In this document: positions 187 to 13,953 of the stretch, one piece after another
How the letters are laid out: every line of letters begins with the position of its first letter
Position numbering within the stretch: position 1 is the first letter of the stretch
From: Rhizobium sp. R635
GTDB lineage: Bacteria > Pseudomonadota > Alphaproteobacteria > Rhizobiales > Rhizobiaceae
Length of the DNA stretch: 64,000 nt
Direction: 5' to 3'
Assembly (NCBI RefSeq): GCF_002211285.1
Contig: NZ_LOKX01000018.1
Location: forward strand, 1-64,000
Program-made: the position numbers and the translations under genes
The notes under the pieces: generated by a model
Seen by the model: only the letters and a program-made list of their open reading frames with translations
Database searches by the model: none
What the model was told of the DNA's origin: nothing

Positions 187-1284
187 TCAGAATTTCTGCT
201 GCGTTATCAGCACTTCGCGGGCGATCTGATCGAGCGGCAGGACGCGGTCGACGCCGCCCTTGGCGATCGCCTCCTTCGGCATGCCGAAAACGACGGAACT
301 CGCCTCGTCCTGCGCCACCGTGTAGGCGCCGGCCTGATGCATTTCCAGCATGCCGCGCGCGCCGTCGTCGCCCATGCCCGTCATGATGATTCCCATGGCG
401 TTCGAGCCGGCCGAACGCGCCGCCGAACGGAAGAGCACGTCGACGGACGGCCGGTGGCGGGAGACCAGCGGCCCTGTCTTCACGCTCACATGATAGCGCG
501 CGCCCTGGCGTTCGAGCAGCGTGTGCCTGTCGCCGGGCGCGATCAAGACATGGCCGCGCAGCACCGGATCGCCGTCAGCGGCCTCCTTGACCTCGACCTC
601 GCAGAGCCCGTTCAGCCGCTTGGCGAAGGCGGCGGTGAATTTCTCCGGCATATGCTGGACGATGACCATGCCGGGCGCATTGGCCGGCAGTTCCTCCAGG
701 AACTCGCGCAGTGCTTCGGTTCCGCCGGTGGAGGCGCCGACGCAGACGACCATCTCCGTCGTCTTCGCCATGGCCTGCCCCGTCGGCGGCGGCAGCATGG
801 CATCGGCCGTCAGCTTCTTGGCCGGCCCCTCGGCGGAAGCCGAGCGAATGGTCCCGGCCGCGCGGCGGACTGTGGAAAGCCGCGCCTGCGAGGCGCTCTT
901 GACGACTTCGCGAATGCGCATGGCGTCATCGGCAAGGCTGTCGGCGGCGCCGATCTTCGACTTCAGGATGACGTCGACGGCACCCGCCTCCAAAGCCTGA
1001 ATCAGCGTTTCCGAGCCCGCCTCGGTCAGCGACGAGCACATCACGACCGGGATCGGCCGCTGCGCCATCAGCTTGCGCAGGAAGGTGATGCCATCCATGC
1101 GCGGCATCTCCACGTCGAGCGTGATGACATCGGGGACCTCGTCCAGCAGCCTGCGCGCCGCCACGAAGGGATCGGACGCCACCGCCATGATCTCGATATC
1201 GGGATCCTGCTCCAGCACGTGGGCCAGCGTCTGCCGGACGCTGGCGGAATCGTCGATGATGAGAACGCGGATTTTCTTGCGCAT
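187..1284 (-). CDS. cheB: Protein-glutamate methylesterase/deamidase CheB
   Basis: This 365-residue cytoplasmic response regulator removes methyl groups from chemoreceptor glutamates once phosphorylated by CheA, and so drives adaptation. An N-terminal receiver domain (about 1-125) has the acidic pocket at D11/D12 and the phospho-acceptor at D57 in [11 protein letters not shown]. After a linker, the methylesterase domain (about 178-365) shows the catalytic Ser185 in GASTGG, His211 in VQHMPE and Asp306 or 307 in MTGMGDDG. The ATG at 1284 is chosen because the receiver domain begins right there ([12 protein letters not shown]); a longer open frame upstream has no family similarity. It is the last gene of the chemosensory operon, 8 nt after cheR. 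Confidence 0.96.
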
Positions 1285-1292
1285 GAACGCCT

Positions 1293-2147
1293 CTAGATAC
1301 GCTGGAACACCGTGTTCGAGACCTGTTTCAGCGGCAGGTCGAAACCGGTGATCGACTCGGAGTGGCCGATGAACATGTAGCCACCCTTCGCCAGGCAATC
1401 GCAGAGGCGGTTGAGCACGCCGGCCTGAGTCTGCTTGTCGAAGTAGATCAGCACGTTGCGGCAGAAGATGATATTCATCAAGTCGCCGACCGGATATTTG
1501 TCGTCCATCAGGTTCATCCGGGCAAACCCCACCCTGCTGCGCAGCTTCGGGTTTATGCGCACCTCCTTGCGGCCTTGCTGCTTGGCGACCAGCACATATT
1601 TGCGCTGCAGATCGCGCGGCACGGGCGCGATCAGGTCTTCCGGATAGATGCCCCGGCGCGCCGTCTGCAAGACGTCGGTGGAAAGATCGGTGGCAAGCAC
1701 GCTGTAGGAAACGTCGTTGCGACCTTCCGCGAATTCCGCCAGCACCATCGCCATCGTATAGGGTTCGGCCCCTGTCGAGCAGGCCGAACTCCAGGTGCGG
1801 ATGGTGCGCACGCCGCTATTGGCGATCGTCGGCAGCGCCACGGTCTGCATATATTCGAAATGCTTGGCTTCCCGAAAGAAGTCGGTCTTGTTGGTCGTCA
1901 CCACGTCGATCAGATAGACGGTTTCCTGGGCAAGCCCGTCGTGATTGAACAGGAAGTCGCAATAATCGTCGAAGGTCGAATGGTTGGTTGCGCGAAGGCG
2001 GCGCCGCAGCCGCCCTTCGAGCATCGTCAGCTTGGTCGGCGGCATCTTGATGCCGCTGTAGTCGTAGATGAACCGGGCAAGCTTTTCGAAATTGCGCTTG
2101 CTGATCCGATCACCCGGCAATTGGGTTTCCACCGCTGCCATACTCAT
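1293..2147 (-). CDS. cheR: Chemoreceptor methyltransferase CheR
   Basis: This 284-residue SAM-dependent enzyme methylates receptor glutamates. The N-terminal helical CheR domain (about 15-75) is followed by TNKTDFFRE (85-93), the SAM-binding loop [12 protein letters not shown] (119-130) and CRNVLIYF (229-236), all diagnostic of the family. Length is normal. There is no TPR extension. It lies between the second cheW and cheB, so methylation and demethylation enzymes are made together. The receptors encoded alongside lack a C-terminal NWxxF-type tethering peptide, so CheR probably acts directly on the receptor helices or uses another docking site (inference). Confidence 0.96.
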
Positions 2148-2176: not shown

Positions 2177-2659
2177 TCAGGCGGCCGATTGCAGTGCCGA
2201 GGTATCCTCGCGCGACAAGAGCCGCGCGAGATCGATGATGACGACGAAGCCGTTTTCACGGCGAACGACGCCTGCAATATAGTCCGAGCGCCAGCGCACG
2301 CCGATGTCGGGCGCCGTCTCGATCTGGTCGTGCCGGAACGGCGTGACTTCGAAGACGCGGTCGGCGACGAGGCCCAGCGTCAGCAGCCGGCTTTCCATCG
2401 GCACGTCGAGGACGAGCACCCGCGTATGCGGCGTCGGCACGGTCTTCGTCATGCCGAGCTTCAATCGAAGATCGATCGTCGGCACGCCCTGCCCGCGCAC
2501 GTCACGCAGGCCGAGCAGATAGTCGGGACCGTTCGGAATCTTGAACGCTTCCGCATAGTCGAGGATTTCCCGCACGACCTCGACCGGCACGGCGAAGATC
2601 TCCTCGCCGAGGCTGAAGGTCACGAATTGCGCTTCCAGAGATGTCGGAGCCATGATCAC
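2177..2659 (-). CDS. cheW: Chemotaxis coupling protein CheW (second copy)
   Basis: A 160-residue CheW-domain protein linking receptors to CheA. The fold is visible across almost the full length: a first beta strand [15 protein letters not shown], then VREILDY, then [15 protein letters not shown], then a C-terminal [10 protein letters not shown]. The start is probably GTG 2659, which overlaps the stop of the preceding receptor (GTGA) and sits about 7 nt after an AGGA; ATG 2653 is the alternative and shortens it by two residues. It differs clearly from the other CheW of this operon (8622-9131), so the two may hold different positions in the array. Confidence 0.95.
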
Positions 2660-4464
2660 GCGCTTTCCTTGAATTCGGCGTCTCCATCATCGGGACCGCC
2701 CATGGAGAGATCGAGAGCGAAACCCTTCGCCCGCGCTTGCTGGCCGGCGACGCTGTTGGCGGCGGGGGTCCTGACACCGAGCTTGCGGCCGGTGAGGGGA
2801 GCCGAACTGCGGACAGTGACCTTCGCAGCCGGCGTCCGGGATTGGCGGTCGCCTGCCGCATCGATCTTGAAGAAGGCGATCGACGCCTGCAGTTCTTCGG
2901 CTTGGGAGGCGAGTTCCTCGGAAGTTGCAGACATCTCCTCGGAAGCGCCTGCATTCTGCTGCGTCACCCGGTCGAGCTGCTGGATCGCTTCATTGATCTG
3001 CGACGCGCCGATATCCTGCTCGCGGCAAGCGGCGCTGATTTCGGAAACCAGTTCGGCCGTCTTGCGGATGTCGGGCACCAGCCGGCCGAGCATGTCGCCG
3101 GCGTCCTGGGCAGCCTTGACCGTATCGCCCGACATCGAGCTGATTTCGGCAGCGGCCGACTGGCTGCGTTCGGCAAGCTTGCGCACCTCGGAGGCGACAA
3201 CCGCAAACCCCTTGCCGTGTTCGCCGGCACGCGCCGCTTCGACGGCGGCGTTGAGCGCCAGAAGATCGGTCTGGCGGGCGATTTCCTGAACGATGCTGAT
3301 CTTCTCGGCGATGGTCCGCATCGCCTGGACGGCGCGCGACACCGCTTCGCCGCTCATCTCGGCATCCTTGGCCGACTGGCGGGCGATCTTTTCGGTCTGC
3401 GCCGCGTTGTCGGCATTCTGCTTGATGTTGGCGGCCATCTCCTCCATCGAGGCGGACGCCTCTTCGGCGGAAGCCGCCTGTTCGCTGGCGCCCTGTGACA
3501 CCTGCTCGGAGCTCGAGGACAGTTCCTGGCTGCCGGCCGAAACATTTTCTGCGGCAGCAGCCGCATCGGCGACGACGCCACGCAGGCGCTCGACCATCTG
3601 CTCGAGCGCAATGCCGAGCGTATCCTTCTCCGAAAGCGGCTTCGGTGCGACAGTCAGATCGCCGTCGGCGATCTGCGCCGCAATGTTCGCGGTGATGCGA
3701 AGGTTCTCCGTCATGGTGTTGATCATGTTGACCAGATCCTTGATCTCGTCATTGCTTCTGATCTCGACCTTCTGGTTCAGGTCACCGATCGCGACAGCGC
3801 TGGCAACGTTCATGATCTTGCGCAAGCCGCTGTTGACGCCGAGCGCAATCCAAAGGGCAGCGGCGAAAGCAATGACGGAAGCCCCGATCGCTACACCGAT
3901 CAGCGTATTCTTCGTCGAGCTGTAAAGGATGTCTGTGTCGTTATCGGCTTGAGCCATCGCTTTTTGCTGAAGCGTGACGAGCGTCTCGAAAACATCTTCC
4001 AACTCCAGGACGAGGCCGCGAACCTCCCCTGAGGAAAGCGCCACGGCCCCTGCCCTGTCGCCGCCTTCCTGGGTAGAGGCGACTCTGTTGGAGCCTTCGT
4101 CGAAGCGTTTGGCGAGATCGAGCAGCCTGTCCCAACTGGGCTTGCCCTCGGGAGTTGCGAGCTGTTGGCCGGTTGTCACCAAAGCGATCATTTCATCCAC
4201 ACTCTTTGCGGCATTCTGATAGTGCTTCCTGACCATTTCAGGATCCATCTCCAGAAGGGCGTTTTTCTGCCAACGAACGGCATCGAGCTCGGCGGTCTTC
4301 GCTTCCATTGCCAGTTCCAGTCTTTTCGCGGGACCTGCAACAAGGTTGCTGACGGCGTCGTTCAGTGAACTAAGGCTCAAGATTCCATAGACCGCGCTGC
4401 CGGCCAGCAAGACTATGACAAAGCCGAAGGCGGCTGCGAGTTTAAGTTTGATCGTAATACGCAT
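2656..4464 (-). CDS. Methyl-accepting chemotaxis protein, two HAMP units
   Basis: A 602-residue inner-membrane chemoreceptor. TM1 is about 10-31, a periplasmic helical sensor of the 4HB_MCP type about 32-186, TM2 about 187-209. A first HAMP (about 210-257) is followed by a second HAMP-like unit (about 258-299, containing AQIADGDL and PKPLSEKD). The cytoplasmic hairpin has the conserved tip [17 protein letters not shown] (394-410) that binds CheA and CheW. It ends in a proline/alanine-rich linker and a tail [13 protein letters not shown]...ESA shared with the two neighbouring receptors. The ligand is not predictable. It is the third receptor transcribed in the operon, directly before cheW. Confidence 0.95.
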
Positions 4465-4687: not shown

Positions 4688-6610
4688 CTAGGCGCTCTCC
4701 CTAAACTCGTCGTCAACGGTGTCGGGACCGCCCATCGACATGTCGAGGGCAAACCCTTTCACTCGCGCCTGTTGAGCAGCGACGCTGCCGGCGGCCGGTT
4801 TCCTGGCCGCAGGCTTGCGGGCGGCGGGAGCGGGGCTCCGCACCGTCGTCCTGGCCGCCGGCGCGCGATCACGGCGGCTGCCTGCCGTATCGACCTTGAA
4901 GAAGGCGATCGACGTCTGCAGTTCTTCAGCCTGGCTCGCGAGCTCTTCCGAGGTAGCGGACATCTGCTCGGAGGCGCCGGCATTCTGCTGCGTCACCTTG
5001 TCGAGCTGCTGGATCGCCTCGTTGATCTGCGCCGCGCCGATATCCTGCTCGCGGCAGGCCGCACTGATCTCCGAGACCAGCTCGGCCGTCTTGCGGATGT
5101 CGGGCACCAGGCGGCCGAGCATTTCGCCGGCTTCCTGGGCTGCCGTCACGGTGTCGCTCGACATCGAGCTGATTTCGGCCGCCGCCGACTGGCTGCGTTC
5201 GGCAAGCTTGCGCACTTCCGAGGCGACAACCGCAAAGCCCTTGCCGTGCTCGCCGGCGCGGGCCGCTTCGACGGCCGCGTTGAGGGCGAGCAGGTCGGTT
5301 TGGCGGGCGATTTCCTGGACGATGCCGATCTTCTGGGCGATCGTGCGCATGGCATCGACCGCGCGGGAGACGGCCTCGCCGCTCGCTTCCGCATCCTTGG
5401 CGGACTGGCGGGCGATCTTTTCCGTCTGGGCCGCATTGTCGGCATTCTGCTTGATGTTCGAGGCCATCTCTTCCATCGAGGCGGAAGCTTCTTCGGCGGA
5501 AGCCGCCTGCTCCGTGGCGCCCTGCGATACCTGCTCGGAGCTTGCCGAAAGCTCCTGGCTGCCGGCCGAAACATTTTCGGCGGCCGAGATCGCGTCGGCG
5601 ACGACGCCGCGCAAGCGCTCGACCATCTGCTCCAGGGCAAGGCCCAGCGCATCCTTGTCGGAGAGCGGCTTCGGCGACACCGTCAAGTCGCCGTTGGCGA
5701 TCTGGTCGGCGATCCCTGCCGTGGTCCTGAGGTTGGCGATCATGCTCTGCATCGCGATGCCGAGCGTATCCTTGTCCGAGAGCGGCTTGGCATCGGTCGT
5801 CAGGTCGCCCATGGCGATCTGGTCGGCAAGGGCCGCCGTCGCGCGCAGGTTGGCGGTCATGGTGTTGACGGTATCGATGAGATCCTTGATCTCGTCATTG
5901 GTCCTGACGTCGACCTTCTGATTGAGATCGCCGATAGCCACGGCGTTTGCGACGCTCGTGATCTTCCGCAGGCCATTGTTGATTCCGAGCGTGATCCACA
6001 AGGCGGCGCCGAGAGCCACGAGCACGGCGATACCCGATGCCGTGGTGAGGATGAGCTTGGTCGAATCGTAAAGCTCGGTATTGGCATGGTCGGTCGCCTG
6101 CATGCTCTTGCGCTGGATCTCGATCAGGGAAGTGATCGCGCCAGCCATATCGTCGGTCATCACCCTGAGATCGCCGAGCGAAAGCGCAAGCGCGCCTGCC
6201 TTGTCGCCTCTGGCGTCGAGCTGCTGCAGTTCGGCGGATTTTTCGCGGAATTTTCCGCCGATCGCCCGCAGCTTCTCCCAATGGACCTTGCCTTCTGTCG
6301 TGGCGATGGCAAGGCCGGCATCGACGGTGTCGAACATGGCCTGCAGGTTCTGGTCGGCTTCCTTGTAAAAGCCGGCGGCGGTCTCGGGATCGGTGGAGAG
6401 CAGCGCGTTCTTCTGCGCGCGGATCGCGTTGACTTCGGCAATATTGGCATTCAGCGCCAGCTCCAGGCGGCGCACCGGCCCATCGATCATATCGCCGCTC
6501 GCCTCGTTCAAGGTGCCGAGGCTCAGGCTTCCGTAAACTGCGATGCCGATCAGAAGCAGCGTCATGACTGAGAAGGCAAGGCCGAGTTTGAGCTTAATGG
6601 TGAAACGCAT
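4688..6610 (-). CDS. Methyl-accepting chemotaxis protein, three HAMP units
   Basis: A 640-residue receptor, the longest of the three. It aligns without gaps to the downstream receptor over the first 257 residues: TM1 about 10-31, 4HB-type periplasmic domain, TM2 about 187-210, first HAMP about 211-257. Then come two direct repeats of 39-42 residues (258-296 and 297-338), each with ADQIAxGDLT and KPLSDKD, giving a HAMP triplet. The signalling hairpin is nearly identical to that of its neighbours. The start at ATG 6610 ([10 protein letters not shown]) matches the neighbours; the in-frame ATG upstream adds 18 residues unlike them. The C-terminal tail ends EFRESA. Confidence 0.95.
5597..5839 (-). 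repeat. Tandem intragenic repeat encoding HAMP units 2 and 3
   Basis: Two adjacent units of about 117-126 bp inside the long receptor gene encode residues 258-296 and 297-338. Both read (A/G)xADQIAxGDLT, KPLSDKD, LG(I/L)A and end in a hydrophobic LR pair. The downstream receptor has one such unit after its canonical HAMP and the upstream receptor has none, so unit number varies among the three paralogues. Confidence 0.8.
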
Positions 6611-6880
6611 GTGATACCCCGTTCTATGCGCAAAACGATTGGATAGAGAGACGTTCCGGTCCAAGGAACGCCGAACTTCAGAGTGATGTGTCTGAAAGGG
6701 GGAAAGCGACTACATTCACTTCCCGGCGGCCGGACATCTATCGGTCGCAGCGCCAACGCCTACACGCGTTGGGATATTTCCCGCCTCGGGCCACCAGGGC
6801 AGCCCGAGGGATCACATGAAGGCGAAGGCTGAGGCGCTTCACCCGGGAGAATGCTCGGCACTCTCCTCCAAGAGGCGCAT

Positions 6881-8590
6881 TTATGCGCTCTCTCTGAAAT
6901 CGTCGTCGCCGTCGTCAGGACCGCCCATCGACATGTCGAGAGCGAAGCCCTTGAGGCGCTGCTGCTGGGCCGAAACCGTCTGGCCGCGGCCCTGGCTTTG
7001 GGCGTGCGGAGCAGGCTTGCGGGCAACGGCCGGAGCCTTGATCACCTTGGCCGGGCCTTTCGGCTGCGTCTTCTGGGCACCGGGCCGTGCGCTGCCTGCC
7101 GTATCGACCTTGAAGAAGGCGATCGACGTCTGCAGTTCTTCGGCCTGGCTCGCGAGTTCTTCCGAGGTAGCGGACATCTGCTCGGAAGCACCGGCATTCT
7201 GCTGCGTCACCTTGTCGAGTTGCTGGATCGCCTCGTTGATCTGGGAGGCGCCGATATCCTGCTCGCGGCAGGCGGCGCTGATCTCGGAGACGAGTTCCGC
7301 CGTCTTGCGGATGTCGGGCACCAGACGGCCGAGCATCTCACCGGCATCGGCGGCGGCCTTTACGGTATCACCCGACATCGAGCTGATTTCGGCGGCGGCC
7401 GACTGGCTGCGTTCGGCAAGCTTGCGCACTTCCGAGGCCACGACCGCAAAACCCTTGCCGTGCTCGCCGGCGCGTGCTGCTTCCACAGCCGCGTTGAGTG
7501 CGAGAAGGTCGGTCTGGCGAGCGATTTCCTGGACGATGCTGATCTTCTGGGCGATCGTACGCATGGCATCGACAGCGCGCGTGACGGCTTCGCCACTGGC
7601 TTCCGCATCCTTGGCGGACTGGCGGGCGATCTTTTCGGTCTGCGCGGCGTTGTCGGCGTTCTGCTTGATGTTGGCGGCCATCTGCTCCATTGAAGCGGAA
7701 GCCTCCTCGGCGGAAGCCGCCTGTTCCGTGGCGCCCTGCGATACCTGCTCGGAGCTTGCCGAGAGCTGCTGGCTGCCGGACGAGACGTTTTCGGCGGCCG
7801 AAAGCGCGTCGGCGACGACGCCACGCAGGCGTTCGATCATGATGTTGACGTTGCCCAGAAGTTCGCCGATTTCGTCATGGCTGGTGATGTCGGCCATCTT
7901 CGTCAGATCGCCTTCCGCCACTTCGCGAACCACGGTGTTGGCGCGGCTGAGGCCCTTGCTGATCGTGCTGGCAATCCAGAAGGCCGTAATCGCGGCAATC
8001 AGCAGCGCAACGGCCGCGACGGCGATCATCGTCGTGCGTGTCGTCGCATACTGCTGGTCGGCCTCGGCGTCGGCACTCTTCATGCGCTGCTTTTCAAGAG
8101 CCAGAATTTCGGCGAGGGTCGAGTCGATATCGTTGGCCGCGGCACGCGCTGCCGTGATGGAGACGGTGTTTGCCCCCTCGGCATTGCCGGCCTTCAGATA
8201 GTCGCGGATCTGGTCGTCGGCTGCATTGAAAGCCTTGGAAAGCTCGGCGATGCGCGCCCAGCGGGCCTTGCCTTCTTCCGTCGCGAGCCCCAGCACATGG
8301 TTGAAGGCCTCGCTAAAATCCTTGCGAGCCTGGTTGCCCTTGTCGATCGCGCCGGCGCTTTCTTCAGGAGTGCGGGCGGTCAGCAGGTTCTTCTGCTGGC
8401 GGATGGCTTCGAGCTGCGCGATGTTGATCTGCTGCGCAAGGTCGAGGCGGGCCGCCGGGCCGGCAAGAAGATTGCCGATCGTATCGTTCAGCGATCCCAG
8501 GCTAAAGATACCGTAAGCGGCGGTGCCCAAAAGCATGAGGATGATGAAGGTGAACGCAGTCACCAGTTTCGTCTTGATTGTCAGTCGCAT
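6881..8590 (-). CDS. Methyl-accepting chemotaxis protein, single HAMP
   Basis: A 569-residue receptor, first of the three transcribed. TM1 about 10-30, periplasmic 4HB-type helical domain about 31-187, TM2 about 188-208, one HAMP about 209-257 ([20 protein letters not shown]), then the methylation helices and the conserved tip [17 protein letters not shown]. The sensor half resembles the other two receptors only loosely, while the signalling half is nearly identical, as expected for duplicates whose ligand sites diverged. The tail [23 protein letters not shown]-like end is shared. It follows cheW by 31 nt. Confidence 0.95.
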
Positions 8591-8621: not shown

Positions 8622-9131
8622 TCAATTGACGGCCCCCGCCGCGTCATGCCTGGATGAAAAAATCGCCTGCAGGTTCGGGAGAATGATGAACTCCCCGCCC
8701 CTCTTCACCAGGCAGTTGATGTAGTCGGCGCGCCAGCGCATGCCGACGCTCGGCGGAGCCTCGCTGGCCGTCTTGGCAAGCGTCGTCACCTCGTTCACCT
8801 TGTCGGTTCTGAGGCCGACGAGCGTCGGCTCGCCCTGCAGATCGATCTCGATGACGATGAAACGGCTGTCGATCGTGGCCTCCGCCGCCTCCATTCCGAA
8901 GGCGAGGCGCAGGTCGGCGAGCGGAATGACCTTGCCGCGAAAGTTGATGACGCTCGCGACGAAGGGCTGGCTGCCCGGCACCGCGGTTTCCGGAAGCAGG
9001 TCCAGGATTTCCTGGACGATGACCGCTTCCAGCGCGAAGGTCTCGCCGTTGAGATCGAAGGTCAGGACCTCGACTTCCTCGGCATAGCTCCAGTGATTGT
9101 CAAATCGTTCGACTGTTGCTGCTGCGCTCAT
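8622..9131 (-). CDS. cheW: Chemotaxis coupling protein CheW (first copy)
   Basis: A 169-residue CheW-domain protein. The domain (about 20-160) shows EVLTFDLNGETFALEA, IVQEILD, PFVASVINFRGKVIPLADLR and a C-terminal EFIILPNL. The ATG at 9131 overlaps the cheA stop codon (ATGA), so it is translationally coupled to cheA and made in proportion to it. It is longer at the N-terminus than the second CheW of the operon. Confidence 0.95.
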   Translation of the reverse strand: MSAAATVERFDNHWSYAEEVEVLTFDLNGETFALEAVIVQEILDLLPETAVPGSQPFVASVINFRGKVIPLADLRLAFGMEAAEATIDSRFIVIEIDLQGEPTLVGLRTDKVNEVTTLAKTASEAPPSVGMRWRADYINCLVKRGGEFIILPNLQAIFSSRHDAAGAVN

Positions 9132-11179
9132 CCTGCTACCCGCAATTGCGCCTCCTGTTGCTGACCCGCGGCAACCAGGTGCCCGACGTCGAGAATGAGG
9201 GCGACGCTGCCGTCGCCGAGAATGGTCGCGCCCGAGAAGGTCGCCACGTTGTCGTGCAGTTTCGACATCGACTTGATGACCGTCTGGTGGTCGCCGATGA
9301 TCTGGTCGACGACGAGGCCGACGCGCTCCGTGCCGGTCGAGATCACCACGACCTTCTGATGCACGTCGGGTTTCGTGCCGGTGCGGAAGAGATCGCGCAG
9401 GCGCAGGAACGGCACCAGGCTGTCACGCAGCGAGATGAAGCTGCGGCCGCGCGAACGAAGATCTTCCTCAAGCGACAGTTCGAGGCATTCCTCGACCGCC
9501 GAGAGCGGAATGACGTAGCGGCCGGAACCGACACGCACCAGCAGGCCGTCGATGATGGCAAGCGTCAGCGGTATGCGCAGCGACACTTCCGAACCCTGAC
9601 CCGGCACGCTGACGATATCGATTGCGCCGCGCAGCGCTTCGACCGTCTTCTTGACCACGTCCATGCCGACGCCGCGCCCGGACAGATTGGTGATCGCGGC
9701 GGCCGTCGAGAAGCCGGGAGCGAAGATCAGTTGCAGCAGCTCCGAGTCCGAAAGCGGCTGGCCGGGATGGATCAGCCCTGAGGATTCGGCCTTGGCGCGG
9801 ACCCGTTCACGATTGATGCCCCGGCCGTCGTCCTTGATCGAAATGATTACCTCGCCGCCGGCCTGGCGGGCCGAAAGCGTCACGGTGCCGGCTTTGGCCT
9901 TGCCGGCAGCCAGGCGATCGGCAGGCATTTCCAAGCCATGATCGATCGAGTTGCGCACCAGATGCACCAGGGGATCGGCCAGGCGCTCGATGACCGTCTT
10001 GTCGACCTCGGTCGTTTCGCCCTCCGTCACCAGTTCGATCACCTTGCCGGTCTCGCGGGCGAGATCGTGGACGAGGCGGCGGAAGCGCGAGAAGAGGGTT
10101 GCGACCGGCACCATGCGCAGCACCATCATCGTGTCGCGCAGTTCGCCGGAAAGGCGTTCGATTTCTTCCGAGACGGAGCGCAGCGCGATATCGGTGCTGG
10201 CGCTCGCAAGCTGGCTGAGGCGCGATTGCGCGATGACGAGCTCGCCGACGCGGTCCATCAGTTCGTCCAGGCGTTCGGCCGGAACGCGTACGTTCTCGGC
10301 GGCCTTCGCCTGGCTTGCGGCAGCGGGCGCCTCGCGCCTGACCGGAACCGCCTCGACCGGGCGGAACTCCGGCACCACAGCCGGCGGAACCGGGATCGTC
10401 ATTGCTGCAGCGACAGGAGCAGCCGCCGGCTTTGCTTCGACAGCAGCGGCGGTTGCCGTTGCCGCGCCGTCGATCTCCTCGACGCTGAGTTCCATGTCGT
10501 CGAGCACGAAGATGAAGACGTCGTCGATCGCCGACCGGTCCTGCTCGCTGGTCAGCGTCACATCCCAGGAAACGTAGAGTTCCGTCGGAGTGAGCCCGTC
10601 GAGAGGCGGAATGGCCGAAGTGTCGGCGCACACGGTGCATTCGCCGAGATCACGCAGCTCGTCCAGAAGGCCGAGAGGATTGGTGCCGTTGGCCATCGAA
10701 TTGGCCGGCAGGCTGAAGCGAATGCGCCAGCTGTTCCTCTTCTTTGCCGGAACTTCGCGCACCGATGCGGGAGCGGCAGCAGCCGCTGCTGCGGGTGCCG
10801 CAGCCTTGCCGCCGACGGCAGCCTGCAGCTGCGCCAGAAGCTTATGCCCGATATCCCCGTGATCGGCGTCCGGCTGATCGACGAGGGCTCGCATGTGGTC
10901 CTGGGCGGCAAGAACCGCGGCGACGAGTTCACTGGTCGCCCCGACCTCGCCCTTGCGGACGCGGTCGAAGGCTGTTTCGCAATGATGGGTGAAGGCGGCG
11001 AGCGCCTCGAAGCCGAACATCGCGCCCGAGCCCTTGAGCGTGTGAAGCCCACGGAACACGGCGTCGACGAGATCCTTGTTGTCGAGATCGTGAGTGAGGT
11101 CGAGAAGGCCGGTCTCGATCGCTTCGAGGCATTCGGCAGCTTCCATGCGGAAGACGGCGACGGGATCGAGCGTGCTCAT
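9128..11179 (-). CDS. cheA: Chemotaxis histidine kinase CheA
   Basis: A 683-residue kinase that phosphorylates CheY and CheB. The P1 Hpt domain (about 1-105) carries His46 in GLHTLKGSGAMFGF. After an alanine-rich linker there is a middle domain (about 149-235, starting SWRIRFSLPAN) in place of a typical P2, then a second Ala/Pro linker (240-295). The dimerisation domain follows (about 297-360, RLDELMDRVGELVIAQSRL), then the HATPase with N-box HLVRNSIDHGLE (406-417), DDGRG (450-454) and GRGVGMD (501-507), and a C-terminal CheW-like P5 domain (about 535-670). Its ATG overlaps the cheY stop and its stop overlaps the cheW start. Confidence 0.97.
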   Translation of the reverse strand: MSTLDPVAVFRMEAAECLEAIETGLLDLTHDLDNKDLVDAVFRGLHTLKGSGAMFGFEALAAFTHHCETAFDRVRKGEVGATSELVAAVLAAQDHMRALVDQPDADHGDIGHKLLAQLQAAVGGKAAAPAAAAAAAPASVREVPAKKRNSWRIRFSLPANSMANGTNPLGLLDELRDLGECTVCADTSAIPPLDGLTPTELYVSWDVTLTSEQDRSAIDDVFIFVLDDMELSVEEIDGAATATAAAVEAKPAAAPVAAAMTIPVPPAVVPEFRPVEAVPVRREAPAAASQAKAAENVRVPAERLDELMDRVGELVIAQSRLSQLASASTDIALRSVSEEIERLSGELRDTMMVLRMVPVATLFSRFRRLVHDLARETGKVIELVTEGETTEVDKTVIERLADPLVHLVRNSIDHGLEMPADRLAAGKAKAGTVTLSARQAGGEVIISIKDDGRGINRERVRAKAESSGLIHPGQPLSDSELLQLIFAPGFSTAAAITNLSGRGVGMDVVKKTVEALRGAIDIVSVPGQGSEVSLRIPLTLAIIDGLLVRVGSGRYVIPLSAVEECLELSLEEDLRSRGRSFISLRDSLVPFLRLRDLFRTGTKPDVHQKVVVISTGTERVGLVVDQIIGDHQTVIKSMSKLHDNVATFSGATILGDGSVALILDVGHLVAAGQQQEAQLRVAG

Positions 11180-11544
11180 CTTCCTAAGACCTTCTTGACG
11201 ATCTTGACGAGGCTTTCCGGATCGAACGGCTTGGTCAGCCAGCCGGTCGCGCCGGCCGCCTTGGCGCGGGCCTTGAGATCGGCATCCGATTCCGTCGTCA
11301 GGAAGATGATCGGGACGCCTGCCTGGCCCGGCAGCTTGCGCAGCTCCTCGATCATCGTCAGCCCGTCCATGACGGGCATGTTGAGATCAGTCACGATCAG
11401 ATCGAAGCTGCCGCCCTTGGCCGCGGCAAGGCCCTCTGCCCCGTTGACCGCCTCGGTGACGCTGTAGCCGGCATTCGTCAGCGTGACCTTGGTGGTCAGG
11501 CGGATGCTGGCGGAATCATCTACGGTCAGGATATTTGCACTCAT
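11176..11544 (-). CDS. cheY: Single-domain response regulator CheY
   Basis: A 122-residue receiver domain with no output domain. Visible are the acidic pair D9/D10, phospho-acceptor D53 in VTDLNMPVMDG, switch T83/T84 and K105 in TKPFD. It is presumably phosphorylated by the neighbouring CheA and acts on the flagellar motor or on a motor-independent target. Start and stop codons overlap those of the STAS gene and cheA (ATGA in both cases). It is the only CheY in this operon. Confidence 0.96.
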   Translation of the reverse strand: MSANILTVDDSASIRLTTKVTLTNAGYSVTEAVNGAEGLAAAKGGSFDLIVTDLNMPVMDGLTMIEELRKLPGQAGVPIIFLTTESDADLKARAKAAGATGWLTKPFDPESLVKIVKKVLGR

Positions 11545-11870
11545 AACGTCACCTCTTTATGCAACCAGAAATTTAAGTCTTCTTGATCGAAGGATTCTAT
11601 AAAACCTGCGCGCTCAAGTACCTTCAGGACCGAGCCGCTGGCCGGCGAAGAAAGTTTGAACGTCTTTCCCTTGGCCTTTGCTTGACGACGCGAGGATTCG
11701 AGGAGTTGAACGAAACTCAGATCCGCTTCCGCGCCTTCGGGAATGCTGAGAGTAACTGCATCTCGACTGCGAAATTCATCAGTAATCTTGGAATATAATT
11801 CGGACGAATTGCGAATACTCAGCGCCTCCGGCAAATTTATAGATTCGTAATATTGTTTTGGAGTACCCAA
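11541..11870 (-). CDS. STAS-domain protein, first gene of the che operon
   Basis: About 109 residues with a STAS (anti-sigma-antagonist-like) fold: LPEALSIRNSSELYSKI, a short strand, LSFVQLLESSRRQAKAKGK, then FKLSSPASGSVLKVLERAGF. Small STAS proteins often head rhizobial and related che operons; the molecular role is unsettled. The open frame extends to 12026, but no good ribosome site precedes its ATGs. TTG 11870 is chosen because a GAGGGGG stretch (complement of 11876-11882) lies 5 nt upstream and the product then has the usual single-domain size. The conserved serine position of classical SpoIIAA cannot be assigned with confidence. The gene is visibly richer in A/T than its neighbours. Confidence 0.8.
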   Translation of the reverse strand: MGTPKQYYESINLPEALSIRNSSELYSKITDEFRSRDAVTLSIPEGAEADLSFVQLLESSRRQAKAKGKTFKLSSPASGSVLKVLERAGFIESFDQEDLNFWLHKEVTL

Positions 11871-12210
11871 CGCAGCCCCCTCGGCCAGAGAAATACTTGA
11901 TGACCCTAAGAGGACTCTCACGGCAGCGTTAATGGCGGGTAAACAGCGGTTGTATGAAACTGTCGTATAACGAGTCCCATGACTCCCAATTCTCATCGGG
12001 GATAAGTTGTATTTCCCCCTCAGCAATGGGAATTAAGCAAAGAAAAACAGCAAGTTGGACAATAATTGCCGGCTATGTGGTCTCGCACGGAGCGTCGTCC
12101 ACATCTTTCGTTAATCACAACGCAGGCGAGTCTGGCGCGTTTACCGGTCGTTTCCATCCTGCCCGTAAAAATAGAGTCAAATTGCCTGTGTTTTAAGAAA
12201 AGGTATAAAG
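11871..12210. other. Divergent intergenic region between the che operon and the receptor-like gene
   Basis: A 340-bp A/T-enriched region that must hold the promoters of the che operon (minus) and of the 580-codon gene (plus). Short open frames here have no recognisable product. No confident -35/-10 pair or sigma-54 site was found by eye. The GAGGGGG ribosome site of the STAS gene lies at its left end (minus strand) and an AAAAGG stretch lies before TTG 12211 at its right end. Confidence 0.6.
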
Positions 12211-13953
12211 TTGGCACACGCTCAGGTATCACCGCACGCTGCAGCCTACACACCGGGACGGGACGTCAGCCAGAGCCTTGAATCCGCCCGCAGTCAGGTC
12301 GAGGAACGTTTTCTTGAAGGCGGAACGGTGCTGCTGTCGGTGATGGATGTTCTCAACCGGCTATTGAATTCTCTCGAAAGCGTCACCACGGCGCTCGACA
12401 ACAAGGAGTCGAGCGATACCGGTGCCGATCTCCGCGCAACGGTGGAAAGCCTGACGGCACTGCCGGTCACCGAGGAAAACCGCCAGCAGGCGCTCGTCTC
12501 GCTTGCGCAGACCGGCAGGGATCTGCGCAAGCACGTCGCCGACATGCAGGAGACGATGCGTTATCTCAGAACCTTCGCCGTGACCGTAAAGATAACGGGC
12601 GCGGGCCTTCCCGAATTCGCCGGCTTCGCCCAGGAAATTCTGGAGCGCATCTATTCCGGCACCGATGAGGTCAACCGTTTCGCCACCCATCTCGACAGCC
12701 TCGAGAAAGAGGTCAAGCTCGCCGCCTCGCTCGGCGCCAGCGTTTCCCGAGGTTATGCCGATACCGTTCCGGCTGTCGCCGCGGCGCTGCGCGACGATGC
12801 CGCCAAGATCGCCGGGCACCGCAAGGATCTGGGCGTCGTTGCCCGCGAAGTCGGTGCGATTGCCCGCGGCGTCCAGGCCAAGGTCGCCTCGACATTATCC
12901 GCCCTGCAGATCGGCGACATCACCCGCCAGCGCATCGAGCATGTACAGGCGACGTTTTCGCTGCTCGAGGATTTCTTTGCCGGCGAGGAGGGCTCCAGGC
13001 TCGACGCCGGCGCGCGCCGGCGCCTCCAGAACGTCATTCATCATCTGACCGCGGCGCAGATGAGCGAGATGTGCGCCGATTTCCAGCGGGATTCGGAAAA
13101 CGTCGTGAAGACGATCGCAAGCTTCGACCACGACATGCGGGAAATTCTCAAGCTGCGCGATCAGATGAGCGGCGCGGGCGGCGAGGCCGACGGCAACTTC
13201 ATGCGTGCGCTCGAATCGAGCGTTTCCGCCGCCCATGAGATCGTCAAGCAGGTCGACACGGCGAGCCGGCAGGCCGACACGGTGAGCCAGTCGACGATCG
13301 GCACGGCCGCCAAGCTCTTCGAAGCGATCGGCAACATCCGCGCCGTCAAGACCGATATCCACTATATGGCTTTGAACACCAACCTGCGTTGCAGCCGCTT
13401 GGGCGAGGAAGGCAAGTCGATCAACGTCGTCACCGCCGAACTGCGCATCTTCGCCGGCAAGCTCGACGATTCCGCCGACGCCATCGTCAACGGCCTGCCG
13501 GCGCTCGAAGCCGCGGCCGGCCGCGTCGCCCCCGCCACCGATGCCGGAGCCGGCGGCCTGGACGAGAGCCTGACGGCGGCCGTCGACAACATCCGCTCAG
13601 CCGCCAACGTGATGGAAAATGAGCTGAAGGCGCTTGCCGAGAACGGCCGCGAGGTCGCCACCAAGATCAGCCTGCTGATCGGCAAGCTCGATTTCCAGCA
13701 TGATCTCGGCGACGTCCTTGCCCGCTCTGCCAATCTGCTCGAAAACGTCGCCGGTGCGGAGGTCGCCGATATCTCCGATCTCGCGGAGACGATCGCGCCG
13801 CTCGACCGCAAGATCTTCAAGCTCTACACGATGGTCCAGGAGCGCAACACCCATCGCGGCATCATCCCGGCGGGCAACGACGATACCCCGGCTCCCGTCG
13901 AGACCGCCAAAACCGAAGACGACGAGGACCTTTTCGCCGACGCGCTTTTCTGA
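12211..13953 (+). CDS. Soluble chemoreceptor-like coiled-coil protein with a DxxxQ motif
   Basis: A 580-residue protein without signal peptide or membrane segment, almost wholly helical. Residues 381-417 (DIHYMALNTNLRCSRLGEEGKSINVVTAELR region) align by eye with the chemoreceptor hairpin tip but lack most of its invariant residues. Residues 231-245 contain ALQIGDITRQRIEHV, in which D236 and Q240 match the DxxxQ spacing of the CheZ phosphatase motif. The end is acidic (EDDEDLFADALF). The start is TTG 12211 with AAAAGG upstream; no nearer ATG keeps the N-terminal helix. It is divergent from the che operon, so it may act as an accessory signalling or CheY-phosphatase protein. This function is inference. 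Confidence 0.75.
   Translation: MAHAQVSPHAAAYTPGRDVSQSLESARSQVEERFLEGGTVLLSVMDVLNRLLNSLESVTTALDNKESSDTGADLRATVESLTALPVTEENRQQALVSLAQTGRDLRKHVADMQETMRYLRTFAVTVKITGAGLPEFAGFAQEILERIYSGTDEVNRFATHLDSLEKEVKLAASLGASVSRGYADTVPAVAAALRDDAAKIAGHRKDLGVVAREVGAIARGVQAKVASTLSALQIGDITRQRIEHVQATFSLLEDFFAGEEGSRLDAGARRRLQNVIHHLTAAQMSEMCADFQRDSENVVKTIASFDHDMREILKLRDQMSGAGGEADGNFMRALESSVSAAHEIVKQVDTASRQADTVSQSTIGTAAKLFEAIGNIRAVKTDIHYMALNTNLRCSRLGEEGKSINVVTAELRIFAGKLDDSADAIVNGLPALEAAAGRVAPATDAGAGGLDESLTAAVDNIRSAANVMENELKALAENGREVATKISLLIGKLDFQHDLGDVLARSANLLENVAGAEVADISDLAETIAPLDRKIFKLYTMVQERNTHRGIIPAGNDDTPAPVETAKTEDDEDLFADALF

Follow-up and report, generated by a model that had tools for sequence, protein, structure and literature searches.

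The phosphatase CheZ of Escherichia coli binds a lysine of CheY through D143 and orients the attacking water with Q147, and the end of CheZ binds CheY. The stretch of CheZ described as conserved consists of AXXFQ followed by DXXXQ (PMC7750401; this and the other papers are cited as far as their accessible text goes), and at stages 1 and 2 cheZ is reported only with F6 systems (PMC7184735). Another DXXXQ protein, CheT of Sinorhizobium meliloti, speeds the decay of one phosphorylated CheY (CheY-P), according to a review (PMC12654446). McpA-like receptors (PA0180, VCA1088) belong to F7 clusters; the array can do without them, they fall into no assignable heptad class, and conservation is high at their C-terminus, the role of which is called important yet “unclear” (PMC7184735). 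The che2 cluster of Rhizobium leguminosarum 3841, assigned to class F8 and arranged as cheY3A2W2mcrCBA-cheW3R2B2 (RL4036 to RL4028), influences bacteroid formation and nodule maturation (PMC7617929), and the main text of that paper contains neither the word CheZ nor the word phosphatase. Here we analyse a gene at 12211-13953 on the forward strand of a window of 64,000 nucleotides (the whole stretch of DNA under study) from Rhizobium sp. R635, contig NZ_LOKX01000018.1, which is transcribed divergently from an operon of the che2 kind. We give a probability of about 0.7 to the reading that its product uses a chemoreceptor scaffold for a CheZ-like CheY-P phosphatase; this reading would account for the DxxxQ motif, the C-terminal end, the co-occurrence with the F8 kinase and the lack of CheZ in the genus.

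The first-pass annotation of this DNA had described a receptor-like protein with DITRQ at residues 236-240 and suggested, from the resemblance to CheZ, that it may be the missing phosphatase of the neighbouring operon. Both the open reading frame (ORF), which starts with TTG and encodes 580 residues, and DITRQ, within ALQIGDITRQRIEHV, are indeed present. A DxxxQ by itself, however, proves nothing: the protein contains two of them, and at least one appeared in 81% of 2000 shuffles. The motif is judged to stand above chance because of its conservation and not because of its occurrence. All 49 homologs that cover the region retain D236 and Q240 (50 rows were aligned, of which L048 is truncated); these homologs were chosen by similarity over the whole protein, down to ~22% identity, and sets selected by the motif were not used for this count. 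The pair is also kept in nine of nine further loci, taken from genomes without an F8 CheA match in the five-candidate search described below, one of which (L175) has T238 and E243 changed. Within a set of 20 sequences, made of the 580-aa protein and 19 diverged homologs, two windows of 10 residues tie as best conserved (z 3.04), namely GDITRQRIEH, with the consensus GDxTRQRxEH, and YMALNTNLRC of the receptor tip, while the second DxxxQ of the protein, at 356-360, is kept in only 6. The homology search matched 143 of 200 relatives at E 0.001; where a match was weak, it was mostly the receptor tip that produced it. On a helical wheel D and Q lie off the hydrophobic face in windows of 7-14 residues on each side, with a small moment; this fails at 18 residues and is not relied on. 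One can also imagine a decaying chemoreceptor without function that inherited the motif by chance, as the degenerate tip of one half of the protein and the degenerate DxxxQ copy of the other (see below) would suggest. Invariance of the motif over such great divergence, together with an intact frame and a conserved end in all 69 named genomes where the operon adjoins the gene, makes this explanation very improbable.

Profiles were then compared by hhalign, with P-values that are pairwise and uncorrected. The motif helix (residues 205-262) matched CheZ with P 7.5e-6 and a probability of 84, D and Q being in register, whereas against 16 ordinary methyl-accepting chemotaxis proteins (MCPs) it gave no match (P 0.009). 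Ordinary MCPs scored P 0.035 against CheZ, and none of the 16 has a DxxxQ helix. The element shared with CheZ (PF04344; E. coli CheZ 1kmi; CheZ of the order’s other families) is an active-site helix of the form AxxxxD[IL]TxQR[IV]: CheZ of other families in the order carries, for example, ACNFQDITGQRITKV, and the Rhizobium ALQIGDITRQRIEHV aligns with it without a shift, G standing where CheZ has Q before D. Apart from this G at position -1, the protein differs from CheZ in its receptor-type hairpins, its two tandem units and its length. An earlier hhalign run in another alignment mode had given P 0.0015 for CheZ and, for one of 100 column shuffles, an unexplained P 4e-24 taken as a fault of the run; it was replaced by a repeat in default local mode with a new seed, in which the best of 100 column shuffles for the longer unit against CheZ was P 0.051. 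The idea of a receptor mimic with a CheZ-type site beside an operon that lacks a phosphatase has strong support from the sequences, and its catalytic part we infer. The same helix might serve as a structural or docking element, in which case a soluble receptor-like adaptor would bind CheY or CheA/CheW without dephosphorylation. Such a role would be in line with a receptor tip as conserved as the motif and with the invariance, in the diverged set, of G235, T238, R239, R241, E243 and H244, which a catalytic pair alone would not need. Still, it is the active helix of CheZ and not the helices of ordinary receptors that is matched, and single-unit relatives keep D and Q while other residues of the motif differ (FQDRVSQ, FQDLAKQ), so that docking without catalysis appears unlikely.

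These relatives form a family of their own. A class-wide search with the profile of unit 1 gave matches in 7 of 385 genomes, including the source genome. Two weaker ones, L184 and L182, are MCPs above the Pfam cut-off (E 9e-31 and 7e-25), in which LQFQDRTKQRLEHV or MQFQDLTKQRIEGI follows the tip and IELF stands at the end. A profile of this end produced matches in 31 of 398 genomes of the phylum. Among the 30 proteins listed from that search, 15 have 383-443 residues and end in DITFF, NIELF and similar; a receptor tip is recognised by pattern in 13 of the 15, and for 11 of these 13 both CheY and CheA matches lie in the fetched stretch. L209 is an ordinary CheZ by sequence, and the remaining matches are shorter or longer proteins. 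A non-circular search of 148 genomes of one family used a motif-free query, the first 333 residues of one member. It returned 25 places in 24 genomes, the query’s own included, and all 25 combine FxDxxxQ, an [DE]ITFF end and a CheA match in the fetched stretch. Compared with CheZ, the single-unit FQDxxxQ receptors align D on D and Q on Q (P 1.1e-5, against 0.052 for the reversed control), and they keep the FQ before D that the Rhizobium protein has replaced. As an example, WP_320579541.1 of Pseudomonas sp. HR96, annotated as a methyl-accepting chemotaxis protein, heads the gene order receptor, response regulator, STAS, CheA, MCP, CheW, CheR, CheD, CheB. The “new architecture” envisaged for the Rhizobium gene is not a property of that gene alone, as single-unit versions lie near cheY/cheA in other Proteobacteria. 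Two other kinds of frames were met. Those of 163-260 aa in L192 (1477-1965), L207 (981-1760), L199, L201 and L212, which show helices of the MQFQDATRQQLEHV or FQFYDKLTQRLDHV kind, finish in strings like DSIDLF, EVDLF or DDIELF and have no receptor tip by pattern, look like further small CheZ-like proteins; L192 and L207 adjoin a CheY. Frames of 574-602 aa in L204, L211, L214 and L216 contain FDDITSQRLEHV, FDDITAQR or YDDITAQRLAHV, terminate for example in GFELF, GFEMF or DIELF, and are possibly another branch of long receptor-like DxxxQ proteins.

Against the single-unit family the Rhizobium protein looks like two consecutive units. Unit 1 matched it with P 2.4e-10 (reversed, 0.016), D236 and Q240 aligning with D and Q of the family and the stretch AVTVKITGAGLPEFAGFAQEI with its receptor tip; with the motif masked, a weak match persisted in the same register (P 5.9e-4). 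Unit 2 (residues 300-580) matched with P 2.4e-15 (reversed, 0.006), tip on tip, with YTMVQERNTH on the end segment of the family and LDFQHDLGDVL on the FQDxxxQ helix, where H497 and D501 replace D and Q; at positions 497 and 501 D and Q occur in 0 of 20 sequences. A single-unit receptor combines the tip with a subsequent FQDxxxQ helix, an end segment, an acidic-aromatic C-terminus and a place near cheY/cheA. The neighbourhood of the Rhizobium gene agrees with this, and neither unit holds all of the features: unit 1 has D and Q without the tip, unit 2 has the tip and the end without D and Q. We read this as a tandem duplication with subsequent complementary loss, in which unit 1 would have kept the catalytic pair and lost the tip, and unit 2 the reverse. 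The receptor tip postulated earlier was located as MALNTNLRCSRLGEEGKS, so that tip and DxxxQ, previously joined in one device, belong to different halves of an apparently two-unit protein. Unit 2 resembles MCPs (PF00015) in its hairpin tip (P 2e-9 against ordinary MCPs), unit 1 does not match them, and the protein stays below the Pfam cut-off: nothing in Pfam scored above threshold, no CheC or CheX domain was matched, and the best hit was MCP signalling at residues 337-426, with 23.6 bits against a cut-off of 34.6. The string YTMxxERxxH, nearly invariant in the family of the Rhizobium protein, recurs near the end of L184 as YTMKEERVVH. Homologs on Shinella plasmids (H4, H8) are annotated as type VII secretion targets; 25 of 45 family members match PF10824 (EspC) at E 0.1 or better and the 580-aa protein is below the cut-off, the label being probably a false transfer from that profile.

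The gene travels with the F8 kinase. For the comparison of CheA across relatives 5 candidates were scored per genome. Outside the genus, the sampled genomes with full-length homologs are G124, G148, G153 and G176, and the same four are the only ones outside the genus in that list with a CheA at least 54% identical to that of the operon; in 3 of the 4 the homolog comes immediately after cheB. A search for CheZ was positive in 50 of 200 relatives, all of them from outside the genus. Among 80 named genomes with the gene, 77 have an F8-like CheA, 69 of them in the fetched flanks and 8 elsewhere (68-76% identity); the other 3 have no CheA above 45%, and in 2 of these 3 the gene is split or its end lost. 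Frank decay was accordingly registered in 2 of 3 named genomes without F8 CheA and 0 of 77 with it (Fisher P 0.0009), and in a second set in 5 of 12 against 0 of 43 (Fisher P 0.0002); the two sets overlap and the tests are not independent. Each of these 12 genomes has one CheA of 43-45% identity, all candidates having been scored. Truncated, split or C-terminus-less copies are those of G021, G030, G075, G076 and G108, and the last residues are changed in G006, G029, G096 and G112. G003 was left out of the count without F8 CheA, as its contig ends within the gene; L045 gave no gene score and was not counted, and the loci L046 and L047 stop short of cheA, which was found in L188 and L186. In four Rhizobium loci, L172, L173, L174 and L179, che2 remnants lie beside the gene (STAS only; STAS with a piece of CheY and a piece of CheB; or CheB only), and these are snapshots of operon loss. 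It is also conceivable that the phosphatase serves another response regulator, be it the CheY proteins of Che1, the receiver domain of CheB or an orphan regulator. Copies that look intact without an F8 CheA being found (G024, G074 and G101) speak for this, and so do eight named genomes in which the gene lies away from the operon; seven of the eight are either of the Agrobacterium vitis/Allorhizobium kind or Rhizobiales. All eight, however, hold an F8-like CheA elsewhere, and 69 of the 80 named genomes keep the gene near CheA; a different substrate is therefore quite improbable, and the CheY of the operon is most likely the one on which the protein would act.

Structural models and the C-terminus add further detail. 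AlphaFold2 (AF2) predicted a helical protein (mean pLDDT 80.4, pTM 0.55). A break at 232 precedes the helix that carries the motif (233-257), and a low-confidence stretch at ~552-570 is followed by a short helix at 571-579 (pLDDT below 50). For residues 67-305 alone the model is a hairpin turning at ~130-133 with an unbroken helix through the motif (mean pLDDT 88.9, pTM 0.49). In the prediction D236 and Q240 lie four residues apart on a helix. Foldseek with residues 67-305 returned chemoreceptor domains in the first six rows (best E 0.011) and then generic bundles, none with E below 0.001; the full model returned pore-forming proteins, SMC arms, ion channels and chemoreceptors, likewise none below 0.001. 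When the unit 1 profile was searched against PDB sequences, the matches were receptors and helical bundles, and CheZ was not found. With regard to function the fold searches are uninformative. At the C-terminus, the 69 copies with the operon alongside all end in ALF, in forms such as EDLFADALF and DEDIDDALF. CheZ of the order ends, for instance, in SQDDIDALFD, and SQDQVDDLLD stands close to the end of E. coli CheZ. The acidic-hydrophobic end behind a low-confidence linker may be a further likeness to CheZ, one that is no more than suggestive.

Several observations weigh against a CheZ-like phosphatase. The longer unit matched CheZ weakly (probability 46, P 2.1e-4; with CheZ reversed, 0.0054), and unit 2, which lacks D and Q, scored P 9.5e-4 against CheZ, so that some of this signal must come from helical bundles in general or from a receptor ancestry; the reversed controls cover the units and the single-unit family. 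The AXXFQ that precedes D in CheZ is partly kept (A231 is present, F is I234 and Q is G235), the Pfam CheZ profile (PF04344) does not match the 580-aa protein, CheZ is missing from the matches listed in the fold searches with the full model and with residues 67-305, and the likeness at the C-terminus concerns a short peptide compared by eye. Unit 1 gave no match to ordinary MCPs (P 0.012), so that its receptor ancestry is deduced from the single-unit family. Compared directly, the two units gave no significant match (P 0.009), and the duplication likewise is deduced from the match of both to that same family. G153 and G176 carry CheZ besides the homolog, so the protein does not simply replace CheZ, and the copies of G024, G074 and G101 look intact despite operon loss. 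Finally, for the McpA/CttP-like receptors discussed below, McpA is described as associated with the F6 array and CttP as acting in trichloroethylene taxis (PMC7184735, PMC7534058).

Coordinates of the gene, its parts and its neighbours are collected in Table 1.

Table 1. Features of the two-unit gene and of the divergent che2-type operon; positions are those of the window.
Feature	Residues	Position	Strand	Basis
Two-unit receptor-like protein, 580 aa, proposed CheZ-like phosphatase		12211..13953	+	ORF listing, homologs, AlphaFold2
Unit 1, hairpin with intact DxxxQ helix	14-300	12250..13110	+	hhalign to single-unit family; AF2; Foldseek
Degenerate receptor tip of unit 1, aligned to ALNAxIEAARAGE tip of single-unit receptors	123-147	12577..12651	+	
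ALQIGDITRQRIEH, CheZ-like active-site helix (codons: D236 12916-12918, Q240 12928-12930)	231-244	12901..12942	+	conservation and profile comparison
Receptor tip of unit 2, MALNTNLRCSRLGEEGKS	386-403	13366..13419	+	sub-threshold MCPsignal; ordinary-MCP match
LDFQHDLGDVL, decayed copy of DxxxQ helix	493-503	13687..13719	+	unit 2 alignment to single-unit family
YTMVQERNTH, near-invariant motif, aligned to end of single-unit receptors	539-548	13825..13854	+	
Acidic-hydrophobic C-terminal peptide EDDEDLFADALF, proposed CheY-binding tether after low-confidence linker	569-580	13915..13950	+	AF2 helix, conserved ALF end
STAS-domain protein, first gene of divergent operon		11541..12026	-	PF13466
CheY, proposed substrate		11176..11544	-	PF00072; CheY proteins are the closest among solved structures
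CheA, placed in class F8 through its synteny with che2 as published		9128..11179	-	Pfam and synteny
CheW		8622..9131	-	PF01584
MCP		6881..8590	-	PF00015; without DxxxQ helix
MCP		4688..6664	-	PF00015; without DxxxQ helix
MCP		2656..4464	-	PF00015; without DxxxQ helix
CheW		2177..2659	-	PF01584
CheR		1293..2147	-	PF01739
CheB		187..1398	-	Pfam

The divergent orientation suggested before is borne out by the ORF listing and Pfam: the operon STAS-CheY-CheA-CheW-MCP-MCP-MCP-CheW-CheR-CheB runs on the opposite strand, with 184 bases between both first codons as listed, and its gene order is that of Rhizobium che2. The claim that this operon lacks a phosphatase was equally correct, its ten genes holding one CheY and no phosphatase gene, and Pfam profiles of CheZ, CheC and CheX gave no match in the whole genome, which carries two CheA genes. 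Residues D53, N55, T83, E85 and K105 of the operon’s CheY presumably correspond to positions of E. coli CheY, as we take it from a constant offset. In its accessible text, the published che2 gene list (PMC7617929) names neither the STAS gene nor the 580-aa gene; the cluster of Pseudomonas sp. HR96, too, has a STAS gene, placed between those for the response regulator and CheA. Promoter and Rfam scans gave no promoter-like site and no RNA family, and one terminator-like site was found with 2.2 expected by chance. Among the named loci fetched, the closest homologs belong to Rhizobium species and are at most 92% identical (R. vallis, R. pisi).

Based on these data one can assume the following course of events. 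The helix ALQIGDITRQRIEHV of unit 1 would present D236 and Q240 to the phosphorylated CheY of the adjacent operon, D236 binding the conserved lysine of CheY and Q240 orienting the attacking water. The tail with the C-terminal EDDEDLFADALF helix may tether CheY in the manner of the CheZ end, and the tip of unit 2 may bring the enzyme into the receptor array or close to it, or make its activity depend on the state of the array.

Among described proteins CheT is alike in being a DXXXQ protein of a rhizobial che operon that is not CheZ by sequence. It differs in belonging to the F7 che1 cluster and in an AlphaFold model highly similar to CheZ, and the accessible description, by which it is compared here, mentions no receptor tip (PMC12654446). 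The single-unit family has a similar place in the operon and a conserved C-terminal extension as reported for McpA/CttP-like receptors of class F7 clusters (PA0180, VCA1088; class 24H) (PMC7184735, PMC7534058). The valine that PA0180 has at position 2 of its last five residues (PMC7184735) fits the [DE][IV]TFF ends of the family. By position and C-terminus the single-unit family is therefore likely to be the McpA/CttP-like group, PA0180 and VCA1088 being known here by description only. These receptors are reported with a membrane region, and a phosphatase role is not mentioned in the accessible text of either paper (PMC7184735, PMC7534058). A literature search, which left most subscription journals outside, found no account of a CheZ active site in a protein of the receptor kind.

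The first-pass interpretation was, therefore, partly supported: judged from the sequences, it appears right in direction and too narrow in scope. There is, in our estimate, an even chance that receptor-shaped proteins with a CheZ-type site are widespread unrecognised CheY-P phosphatases, which would provide the off-switch of F8 and early F7 systems, McpA/CttP-like receptors included, with the tip coupling dephosphorylation to the array; the Rhizobium protein would then be a duplicated form with the two roles split between its units. If this is true, a receptor acts by removing phosphate from CheY and not only through control of CheA, and a CheZ-type site on a receptor scaffold would explain both the gap left by the off-switch of che2 and the role of the C-terminus of McpA-like receptors.

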